22,518 nucleotides of DNA from a virus. The stretch covers positions 1-22,518 of the IMG/VR virus record IMGVR_UViG_3300006922_000205; one strand, given 5' to 3'. Both the position numbers and the translations under genes were made by a program. The notes below the pieces were generated by a model. That model was not told where the DNA came from. It did not search any database and was given only the letters and a program-made list of their open reading frames with translations. Shown piece after piece: positions 7,062 through 8,264 of this stretch (positions are counted from its first letter, which is position 1; every line of letters starts with the position of its first letter).

Positions 7062-7751
7062 TTATTTTTGGAGCGCACAGGTCGGAGTCGCACCGCCCAG
7101 ATTAAGTTGGTCACCTAATGCCTGCTCTTTTGCGCGCTTGGGATATGGTTTAGACATTGTTATAACTACATCTTTAATACTGTCAACTAATGGCATTAAA
7201 TAGCAATGTTTACCTTTAGTGTAAAATACTTCTGCCTTAGGGTCTAAATGTTTACGGACGCTTTCTATATTCTGTTTTACACCTTTACTATGAACACTTT
7301 TAGGATGTGTTTTTTTACCATTGATAATAAAAGCACCCATAGTACCAGCGTTTTTTAAACCTGTATAAATCCAATTCGTAGCTTGATATATGCCTCCGTG
7401 ATGTTCTTGGTCTGCATCTGCATAACTAACAATTAATTTTAATTTAGGATTGCTTTTCTTCAAGAATCTTATTGCTATTGCCATTATTTTAGACACTGGT
7501 GTTTTATGTGCTTTCAATGCAATTCTGACTAATTCACAACCTTCATCTGCATTTAGGCCATAAGGTTTTAACATATTATTATTAGCACCCCTACCGAACA
7601 ATACAACACCTATAAATTTACCATCTTCCCAAGCACCTACTTTTACTAATTTGCCTACTGGTATAACAGCACTGTAATGCCAATTTACACAAGCAAATTT
7701 AGAAGCATCATAACTAGCCCAATCAATTTTAATTGTCGGCTTTTTTGTCAA
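7062..7751 (-). CDS. Mom-like adenine hypermodification protein
   Basis: A 229-residue protein close in length to phage Mu Mom (about 230). Mom proteins have a GNAT-related fold and convert adenine to a methylcarbamoyl-type N6 derivative that blocks many restriction enzymes. Blocks that match the family: VNWHYSAVIPVGK near residue 22, VVLFGRGAN near 48, GCELVRIALKAHKTPVSKI at 70-90, and SYADADQEHHGGIYQATNWI around 108-128. The start is TTG 7751, directly after the ParB-like stop, so it is probably translationally coupled; no ATG lies nearby. The last 25 codons are much richer in G and C than the rest and coincide with a tRNA-like fold. Confidence 0.82.
   Translation of the reverse strand: MTKKPTIKIDWASYDASKFACVNWHYSAVIPVGKLVKVGAWEDGKFIGVVLFGRGANNNMLKPYGLNADEGCELVRIALKAHKTPVSKIMAIAIRFLKKSNPKLKLIVSYADADQEHHGGIYQATNWIYTGLKNAGTMGAFIINGKKTHPKSVHSKGVKQNIESVRKHLDPKAEVFYTKGKHCYLMPLVDSIKDVVITMSKPYPKRAKEQALGDQLNLGGATPTCALQK
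7069..7137 (-). ncRNA. tRNA-like element inside the mom 3' end
   Basis: On the minus strand GCGCGCA (7137-7131) pairs with TGTGCGC (7079-7073) over seven base pairs, one of them G-T, like a tRNA acceptor stem. After it come T and CCA (7072-7069). Just before the 3' strand lies a T-arm: GGGCGG, loop TGCGACT, CCGACC. This is six positions with one mismatch, and the loop matches TTCRANY at all but its second base. Between them ATTAGGT and ACTTAAT form a 7-bp hairpin (7119-7101). There is no D arm. Total length is 69. It ends five bases before the mom stop codon. It is unlikely to be a normal decoding tRNA, because the base in the U33 position is G. Confidence 0.45.
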
Positions 7752-8264
7752 TTATACTTCTCTCATATCAAATTTTTGCGTGCAGTGTGGACAAGTTATC
7801 CATTTAGGGTCTAATTCATCTAGTTGCCCTTGTTCATCTTGACTTGCTGGTTCAAAATTTACTTCATCTAATATTAATTTTATTTCATCAACATCAAAGC
7901 CCAATACATCTAAATTATAATCCATATTAGATAATTCTTGCAACTCATCTTTTAATATACCCATATCCCAACCAGCATTTAATGCTAATTTATTATCTGC
8001 TATTACATATGCTTTACGCTGTTCTTCATTTAAATCATTTAATGTTATAGTTGGCACTTCATCTATATTTAATGATTTAGCCGCCATTAACCTACCATGG
8101 CCTGCTATAGTGATATTGTTTTCATCAATTAATATTGGGTTAGTAAAACCAAATTCTTTTATCGAAGATGCTATTTGTTTAATATGTATATTATCATGTG
8201 TTCTACTATTATTATTATATGGAATTAAATCTTCTGTCTTTTTATAATTTACAGATAAGGTCAT
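7752..8264 (-). CDS. ParB-fold N-terminal domain protein
   Basis: A 170-residue protein behind AAGGA. The N-terminal 90 residues are a ParB/sulfiredoxin-type domain: IPYNNNSRTHDNIHIKQIAS, GFTNPILID, then the GHGRLMAA box at 55-62 and VPTITLNDLNEEQRKAYVIA. The C-terminus ends with a short CPHC (about 158-161), half of a possible zinc site. In phages such domains are usually found with, or fused to, DNA-modifying enzymes rather than acting in partition. Here it abuts the mom-like gene. A role in targeting or regulating DNA modification is plausible but inferred; nuclease or CTPase activity cannot be judged from sequence alone. Confidence 0.8.
   Translation of the reverse strand: MTLSVNYKKTEDLIPYNNNSRTHDNIHIKQIASSIKEFGFTNPILIDENNITIAGHGRLMAAKSLNIDEVPTITLNDLNEEQRKAYVIADNKLALNAGWDMGILKDELQELSNMDYNLDVLGFDVDEIKLILDEVNFEPASQDEQGQLDELDPKWITCPHCTQKFDMREV

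Follow-up and report, generated by a model that had tools for sequence, protein, structure and literature searches.

To our knowledge, the donor of the DNA modification made by Mom has been an open question since the structure of the modified product was solved in 1983. According to Swinton 1983, as cited in PMC3874153, the product is alpha-N-(9-beta-D-2'-deoxyribofuranosylpurin-6-yl)glycinamide, and an acyl-CoA, such as glycyl-CoA, has been supposed to act as the donor (PMC7824862). No paper that ties Mom to Gly-tRNA turned up in a literature search, which covered neither preprints nor most subscription journals. Here we describe a tRNA-Gly-like element of 69 nt found in a stretch of viral DNA of 22,518 nucleotides (IMG/VR virus record IMGVR_UViG_3300006922_000205, positions 1 to 22,518), which is referred to below as the window. 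The element is located on the minus strand, i.e. the coding strand of a mom-like gene, and overprints the 3' end of that gene. We consider it to be a dedicated non-translational glycyl-tRNA, which is most likely the glycine donor for Mom (with a probability of roughly 0.65).

Several described systems may be compared with this locus. The protein encoded by the overlapping gene shares its family and fold with Mom of phage Mu (PDB 8bv8, PF25680). Unlike in the window, no such RNA was found anywhere in the Mu genome with covariance model R1 (see below), and Mu mom is controlled through Com. Non-proteinogenic tRNA-Gly species of S. aureus serve as glycine donors for peptidoglycan and have altered T-stem pairs at the EF-Tu contacts (PMC9976931). 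The element resembles them in its glycine identity, the loss of translation features, the altered T stem and the proposed supply to a non-ribosomal transferase, but its proposed acceptor is DNA, not peptidoglycan, and it lacks U33, G18G19, U55 and, in one class, the D arm. The S. aureus genes lie on the chromosome and share no DNA with a protein gene.

Microbacterium phages Phonegingi and Bush carry a canonical tRNA-Gly beside mom, which shares with the element the GCG...CGC-U-CCA arrangement, an NCC anticodon and a match to R1. In contrast to the element, it has a complete D arm and a regular T stem, lies on the opposite strand (convergent with mom) and does not overlap the mom frame. A tBLASTn match in Microbacterium, at first suspected to be a plus-strand element, turned out to be this tRNA-Gly. 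Viral tRNA-like structures and transfer-messenger RNA (tmRNA) are aminoacylatable mimics with a CCA end and a reduced D arm; unlike the element, they sit at the ends of RNA genomes or carry a tag reading frame, and no homology to them was shown. One copy of the element scored weakly with the Tymovirus tRNA-like structure RF00233 (21.2 bits, below the cut-off of 40). Finally, the GNAT-fold protein TacT reads U73 and G71 of Gly-tRNA-Gly, a combination unique to tRNA-Gly (PMC9976931). Both bases are invariant in the element, though TacT acetylates glycine on the tRNA, whereas Mom is proposed to remove glycine from it.

A covarying fold with glycine identity

The fold of the element is near certain, and the RNA itself is almost certainly real. 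The minimum free energy (MFE) and centroid structures obtained with RNAfold for the minus strand (-21.8 kcal/mol) consist of an acceptor stem of 7 pairs, one being G-U, a 7-bp hairpin with a 5-base loop and a T arm; these arms were not recovered on the plus strand. They agree with the parts described, together with T and CCA, in the original prediction, made from the sequence of the window alone, which had also pointed out correctly that the D arm is absent and that the element is rich in G and C for its surroundings (GC content of 0.59 vs about 0.33-0.38).

Evidence for the fold comes from the relatives of the element, which form two structural classes: a D arm is present in the 76-nt class and absent in that of the window. 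The window's class was represented by a gapless alignment of 28 sequences of 69 nt (A2), and the class with a D arm by a gapless alignment of 15 sequences of 76 nt (A3), where the columns of the acceptor, D and anticodon arms and positions 73-76 follow standard tRNA numbering. Standard pairs occupy 98.9% of the cells in A2 and 98.7% in A3. The covariation scores (0.537 and 0.614, respectively) exceed that of shuffled alignments (0.169 +/- 0.016), none of which scored as high, while structures with slid pairs score at most 0.153 throughout and at most 0.101 for A2. In both alignments covariation supports the 7-bp acceptor stem, the anticodon stem and the T stem, and double changes are seen at acceptor pairs 4-7, in the anticodon stem and in the D stem. 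In the class without a D arm, RNAalifold on A2 pairs columns 14-16 and 38-40 in its stead, giving a short helix that extends the anticodon stem; both sides have changed in 14 of the 28 sequences for two of its pairs and in 9 for the third. One relative (L047) has two pairs past the T-stem bulge changed to A-U and C-G, and these paired changes support the bulged register of the T stem. The acceptor stem occurs in 61 versions among 122 elements, with 3.96 of its 4 variable pairs kept, compared with 2.12 when the strands are permuted; as the 5' strand was there picked by best pairing, the covariation in A2 and A3 is the cleaner test. The original prediction had proposed such a test on the 3' ends of mom genes, and in both alignments the stems are kept by compensated changes.

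The window sequence taken alone is far less informative. Its folding energy is unremarkable (z = -0.41, with 68 of 200 shuffles equally stable; RNAfold, minus strand) and, not being significant, was dropped as evidence; one sequence could fold in this way by chance, and the case therefore rests on the relatives. ARAGORN reported no tRNA and no tmRNA in the window, and no Rfam family, including tRNA (RF00005), exceeded its gathering score in the window region and six relatives, but these negatives are uninformative since the tRNA is divergent. Rfam snoRNA matches in the window region were taken as chance. An independent test is provided by R1, trained on the 76-nt class only, with the window and its copy L006 excluded: it matches the element with an E-value of 3.4e-9. 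The E-value obtained with a further covariance model, R2 (1e-16), was set aside, because L006 sits in its training set.

In bacteria the glycine identity set consists of U73, G1-C72, C2-G71, C35 and C36, and a (G10-Y25):G45 triple has also been noted, while cysteine, another U73 family, requires G2-C71, C3-G70 and the anticodon GCA (PMC9976931). The window element has all five features of the glycine set. G1-C72, C2-G71, G3-C70, U73 and CCA are invariant in 43/43 distinct elements found through the Mom protein, and C35 and C36 throughout A2 and A3; moreover, A3 keeps G10 and has C25 in nearly all of its sequences. The CCA end is not templated in the Salinibacter and Arthrobacter copies. R1 also matches the tRNA-Gly of a Salinibacter phage (2.7e-19), the Arthrobacter copy (1.3e-9) and the canonical tRNA-Gly of Microbacterium phages (4.5e-8). 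In four bacterial genomes its matches, elements aside, were tRNA-Gly(UCC) twice, followed by those for Thr, Cys and Met, which is supporting but not decisive, as the Thr match nearly equals the second Gly match. Judging from these bases, the element is very probably tRNA-Gly-like in its identity, and it is likely to be charged with glycine.

The features required for decoding, on the other hand, are lost. The window has G33 in place of U33, and across the elements position 33 may be any base. Positions 32-38 are pairable in most elements, and the open 7-base anticodon loop is lost. In the T loop of the window G55 replaces U55 and, together with the bulged A63, this leaves neither a regular T stem nor U54-U55-C56; the bulge falls in the helix of the EF-Tu contacts. 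By sequence, the element thus combines the two marks of a non-translational tRNA-Gly, i.e. glycine identity kept and EF-Tu contact pairs altered (PMC9976931).

Conservation as RNA and linkage to DNA-modifying enzymes

A search of viral contigs with the Mom protein yielded 80 loci, which were not chosen for the presence of the element. In 56 of them the element sits on the mom strand at the 3' end of the gene, R1 and R2 giving exactly one match each in the same 56 loci, and the suggestion that it is a family-wide feature of mom genes is thereby upheld. The Mom C-terminal tails encoded in this region are of three kinds, e.g. SLGGATPTCTLQ, QRRRDTDPPAPL and TAAVHHRPTRSI, which represent the same DNA read in three frames (25/10/8 over the 43 distinct elements), with the end of the mom stop codon lying 4 to 57 nt past CCA. 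Since every one of the three frames is used to read this DNA, it is the nucleic acid that is conserved rather than the peptide. This reading in three frames, along with covariation, agrees with the selection on the RNA that the original prediction had assumed, and its idea of a tRNA mimic with a templated CCA is borne out by the covariation, by R1 and by the CCA of all 43 elements. Its supposition that a GGATPT..LQ protein tail is conserved did not hold: in other phages this DNA is translated as RRRDTDPPAP or AAVHHRPTRS, and the tail is predicted to be disordered.

The element was also found without recourse to the protein. When viral contigs were scanned for a DNA pattern covering the T arm and the 3' end, 110 distinct elements emerged; in 98 cases Mom is on the same strand (frames 67/21/10), and some of the pattern-found elements lie wholly behind the mom stop codon. 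Among the 12 others, four records (L157, L137, L144 and L176) do hold a Mom match, that of L176 being below the Pfam cut-off; one element (L187) lies beside another system, and several are cut by contig ends. A pattern scan of GTDB gave 55 places, 51 with an acceptor stem, and 35 of these 51 have a Mom match in the locus.

The element is linked to Mom in many ARRANGEMENTS: it may sit at either end of the gene, past its stop codon or convergent with it. In a clade drawn from Chloroflexi, Bacillota and other metagenome-assembled genomes (MAGs), the RNA lies at the 5' end of mom, either overlapping it or directly beside it, and R1 confirmed 21/21 loci tested, mostly of this kind. In genome G020 an element lies 8-17 nt from each of four Mom matches, and G018 is similar; in G023 the RNA is downstream of Mom, and in Collinsella it is convergent. 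In Salinibacter phage B2_17, 33 nt separate the annotated end of mom from the tRNA-Gly behind it. On a tree built from 124 Mom proteins, the arrangements must have changed at least 9 times, the element occurs in several deep clades, and a loss of the phiEf11 type is nested within the 3' clade; the tree cannot separate the rates of gain and loss, since many of its rows were found via the element.

Two loci of this collection are unusual in themselves. In Salinibacter phage B2_17 (L003:2001-2608) the match to Mom is split in two and is longer than the annotated open reading frame, possibly owing to a frameshift or a sequencing error; the tRNA-Gly that follows is intact. In L112:187-215 the T-arm/3' half stands alone, joined in frame to a ParB-like gene, which looks like a deletion of mom together with the 5' half of the RNA.

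The element beside another system, L187:12970-13045 (-), is in a record that contains no Mom, and the GNAT encoded there matches PF22559; in its relatives (L271:4147-4221 and L272:2750-2824) the RNA is located behind ParB, again with no Mom. The full protein of this system is a DNA-adenine-methylase-like (DAM) domain (PF22555) fused to the GNAT domain. The RNA thus accompanies two different GNATs predicted to act on DNA adenine, and DAM-GNAT with its RNA may be regarded as a second candidate system of tRNA-dependent DNA modification.

By its PF25680 match and its predicted fold, the overlapping gene of the window (Table 1) is a member of the Mom family. The AlphaFold model has a predicted local distance difference test (pLDDT) score of 85 and its best fold match is Mu Mom 8bv8 (Z 18.9, 185 residues aligned, root-mean-square deviation 3.9). 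PYPKR marks the end of the folded domain and the point from which the element starts, and the last 22 residues, which are encoded by the element, are below 50 in pLDDT and predicted to be disordered. ParB-like genes, one of which adjoins mom in the window, are frequent neighbours of element-linked Mom and of the DAM-GNAT system. The next gene after mom in the window is phrog_7595 and not a terminase, whereas terminase genes follow in many other loci.

Table 1. Features of the window; read from 7137 to 7069, the element is GCGCGCA AAAGAG CAG GCA TTAGG TGACCAA CTTAA T CTG GGCGG TGCGACT CCG A CC TGTGCGC T CCA
Feature	Position	Strand	Evidence
tRNA-Gly-like RNA, 69 nt, D-arm-less class	7069..7137	-	Sequence, fold, covariation in relatives, covariance model R1
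Acceptor stem, 5' strand GCGCGCA	7131..7137	-	G1 C2 G3 fixed in relatives
CAG, 5' strand of the short helix in place of the D arm	7122..7124	-	Pairs with CTG 7098-7100; RNAalifold on A2
Anticodon arm, stem TTAGG/CTTAA, loop TGACCAA	7102..7118	-	Loop closable to 5-base GACCA
Anticodon-equivalent ACC, positions 34-36	7109..7111	-	C35 and C36 invariant in A2 and A3
T arm GGCGG TGCGACT CCG(A)CC, bulged A at 7082	7080..7097	-	Bulge in MFE structure and in 43/43 distinct elements
Acceptor stem, 3' strand TGTGCGC	7073..7079	-	C70 G71 C72 fixed in relatives
Discriminator base U73	7072..7072	-	43/43 distinct protein-found elements
Templated CCA end	7069..7071	-	Window sequence; 43/43 distinct protein-found elements
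mom-like gene, TTG start	7062..7751	-	PF25680, E 1.5e-41; phrog_1384
ParB-like gene	7752..8264	-	phrog_620, E 5.8e-59

A proposed glycine donor for Mom and the alternatives

The analysis establishes how the RNA folds, that it is kept whichever frame reads it, that its glycine identity bases do not vary and that it accompanies Mom as well as a second GNAT predicted to modify adenine. Its function is narrowed by two facts taken together, namely that the invariant bases are the bacterial glycine set and that the product of Mom is an adenine glycinamide. From these we infer a course of events that runs from transcription through processing, charging and avoidance of EF-Tu to the use of the RNA by Mom and a rearrangement. 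The phage would make a non-coding tRNA-Gly-like RNA from the same DNA as the 3' end of mom, and the RNA would be excised by RNase P at G1 and by 3' trimming to the templated CCA. Because of the overlap, any one transcript can yield either the tailed Mom or the RNA. Host glycyl-tRNA synthetase (GlyRS) would then load glycine onto the excised RNA, which should be poor for translation, as it has no U33, an anticodon loop closable to 5 bases, no D arm in the window's class and a T-stem bulge at the EF-Tu contacts; the charged RNA would therefore remain available to Mom. Mom, a GNAT-fold enzyme, would transfer glycyl from the RNA onto N6 of adenine in the DNA of the phage to give N6-glycyl-adenine, and a Smiles-type shift, in which the glycyl amine attacks C6 (our own proposal), would lead to the known glycinamide adduct. 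In Mom phages that have no element, host tRNA-Gly would serve.

A broader form of this proposal seems probable to us: DNA hypermodification can be tRNA-dependent, with the glycyl-tRNA mimic that the phage encodes over the gene of its own modifying enzyme acting as the donor for Mom and for DAM-GNAT fusions, by N6 acylation followed by rearrangement to the glycinamide, and with element-less Mom phages, including Mu, relying on host Gly-tRNA.

Several observations weigh against a donor role. With R1, no element was found beside mom in Mu, phiEf11 and 13 further, mostly distant Mom phages, the lone weak match among them (E 0.002) being away from mom in a halovirus; Mom can thus do without the element. 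Conversely, there are copies without an adjoining Mom: in Bacillota MAGs (loci L207, L212, L216, L226, L241, L255 and L259) several such orphan or dispersed elements occur per genome, and G019, G021 and G022, for instance, have elements but lack any Mom match. In L318:3190-3286, on the contig of L148, the element is flanked by a C5-methyltransferase-like gene, itself preceded by ParB, and a terminase-like gene, and no Mom was found in the 83-kb record. In a Moranbacteria MAG (L219:1195-1269) it lies between glycosyltransferase-like and terminase-like genes, and the Mom match of that genome is on another contig. Processing of the RNA would, in addition, strip the mom stop codon from that transcript. 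Among the nearest Mom folds listed (Foldseek, VIA), which apart from Mu Mom are mostly generic GNATs, there was no aminoacyl-tRNA transferase, although this is weak either way.

The same overlap and the loss of the stop codon on cutting would suit a tRNA-like regulator of mom, which would bind GlyRS, Mom or another factor within the mom mRNA, or be cut by RNase P, and would set the level of Mom with no donor role. Mu provides a precedent in that its mom mRNA is regulated by Com (PMC6483171), and in most copies the element overlaps the mom frame on the same strand. We nevertheless consider this explanation unlikely. Control in cis is hard to reconcile with the copies on the opposite strand (the canonical tRNA-Gly of Microbacterium, and Collinsella) and with those wholly outside mom, and neither cutting by RNase P nor binding of Mom needs fixed glycine identity bases. 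Phages often carry tRNAs, and with canonical tRNA-Gly genes adjoining mom in Microbacterium phages one might think of a plain, if divergent, tRNA-Gly for translation, held near mom by gene order. This is quite improbable, as U33 is not kept, positions 32-38 are mostly paired, U55 is replaced by G, the T stem is bulged and the window's class has no D arm, while Mom is the consistent neighbour in many arrangements. A similarly small chance is given to mRNA punctuation or stabilisation, in which RNase P and 3' nucleases would part mom from the next gene, often a terminase, with no charging. Such a function would fit the downstream terminase genes of many loci, and tRNA folds can act as processing signals, but it would not need fixed C35, C36 and U73, the gene following mom in the window is not a terminase, and 5'-end and convergent copies exist.

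Phages are also known to counter tRNA-directed defences, and the RNA might be a decoy against host anticodon nucleases or tRNA-acting toxins, e.g. TacT, a GNAT that acetylates Gly-tRNA. The glycine identity of the element does include U73/G71, the TacT determinants (PMC9976931). We rate this explanation lower still, since it leaves the linkage to two DNA-modification GNAT families unaccounted for. There is hardly any chance that we are dealing with a fortuitous resemblance or, as the original prediction had also considered, what is left of an attachment site in a tRNA-Gly gene of the host. Integration of phages into tRNA genes is common, and the lone sequence folds no better than shuffles, but covariation is strong in two alignments and in all variable stems, and the identity bases are intact in 43/43 distinct copies. 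A remnant of an attachment site would be part of a tRNA with unconstrained pairing, and this was ruled out because both tRNA halves, with both acceptor strands, are present and covarying; besides, the element may be on either side or strand of mom.

Irrespective of its function, the element represents a structured RNA laid over a protein tail in three frames across distant phages, and a new RNA family invisible to ARAGORN and Rfam. Its two structural classes show how far a tRNA can be stripped and yet presumably be read by GlyRS. The RNA points to glycyl-tRNA as the donor for Mom, in place of the supposed glycyl-CoA. If this is true, a charged tRNA would for the first time be known to supply a DNA modification, and DNA would join peptidoglycan, lipids, proteins and peptides as an acceptor of tRNA-bound amino acids.
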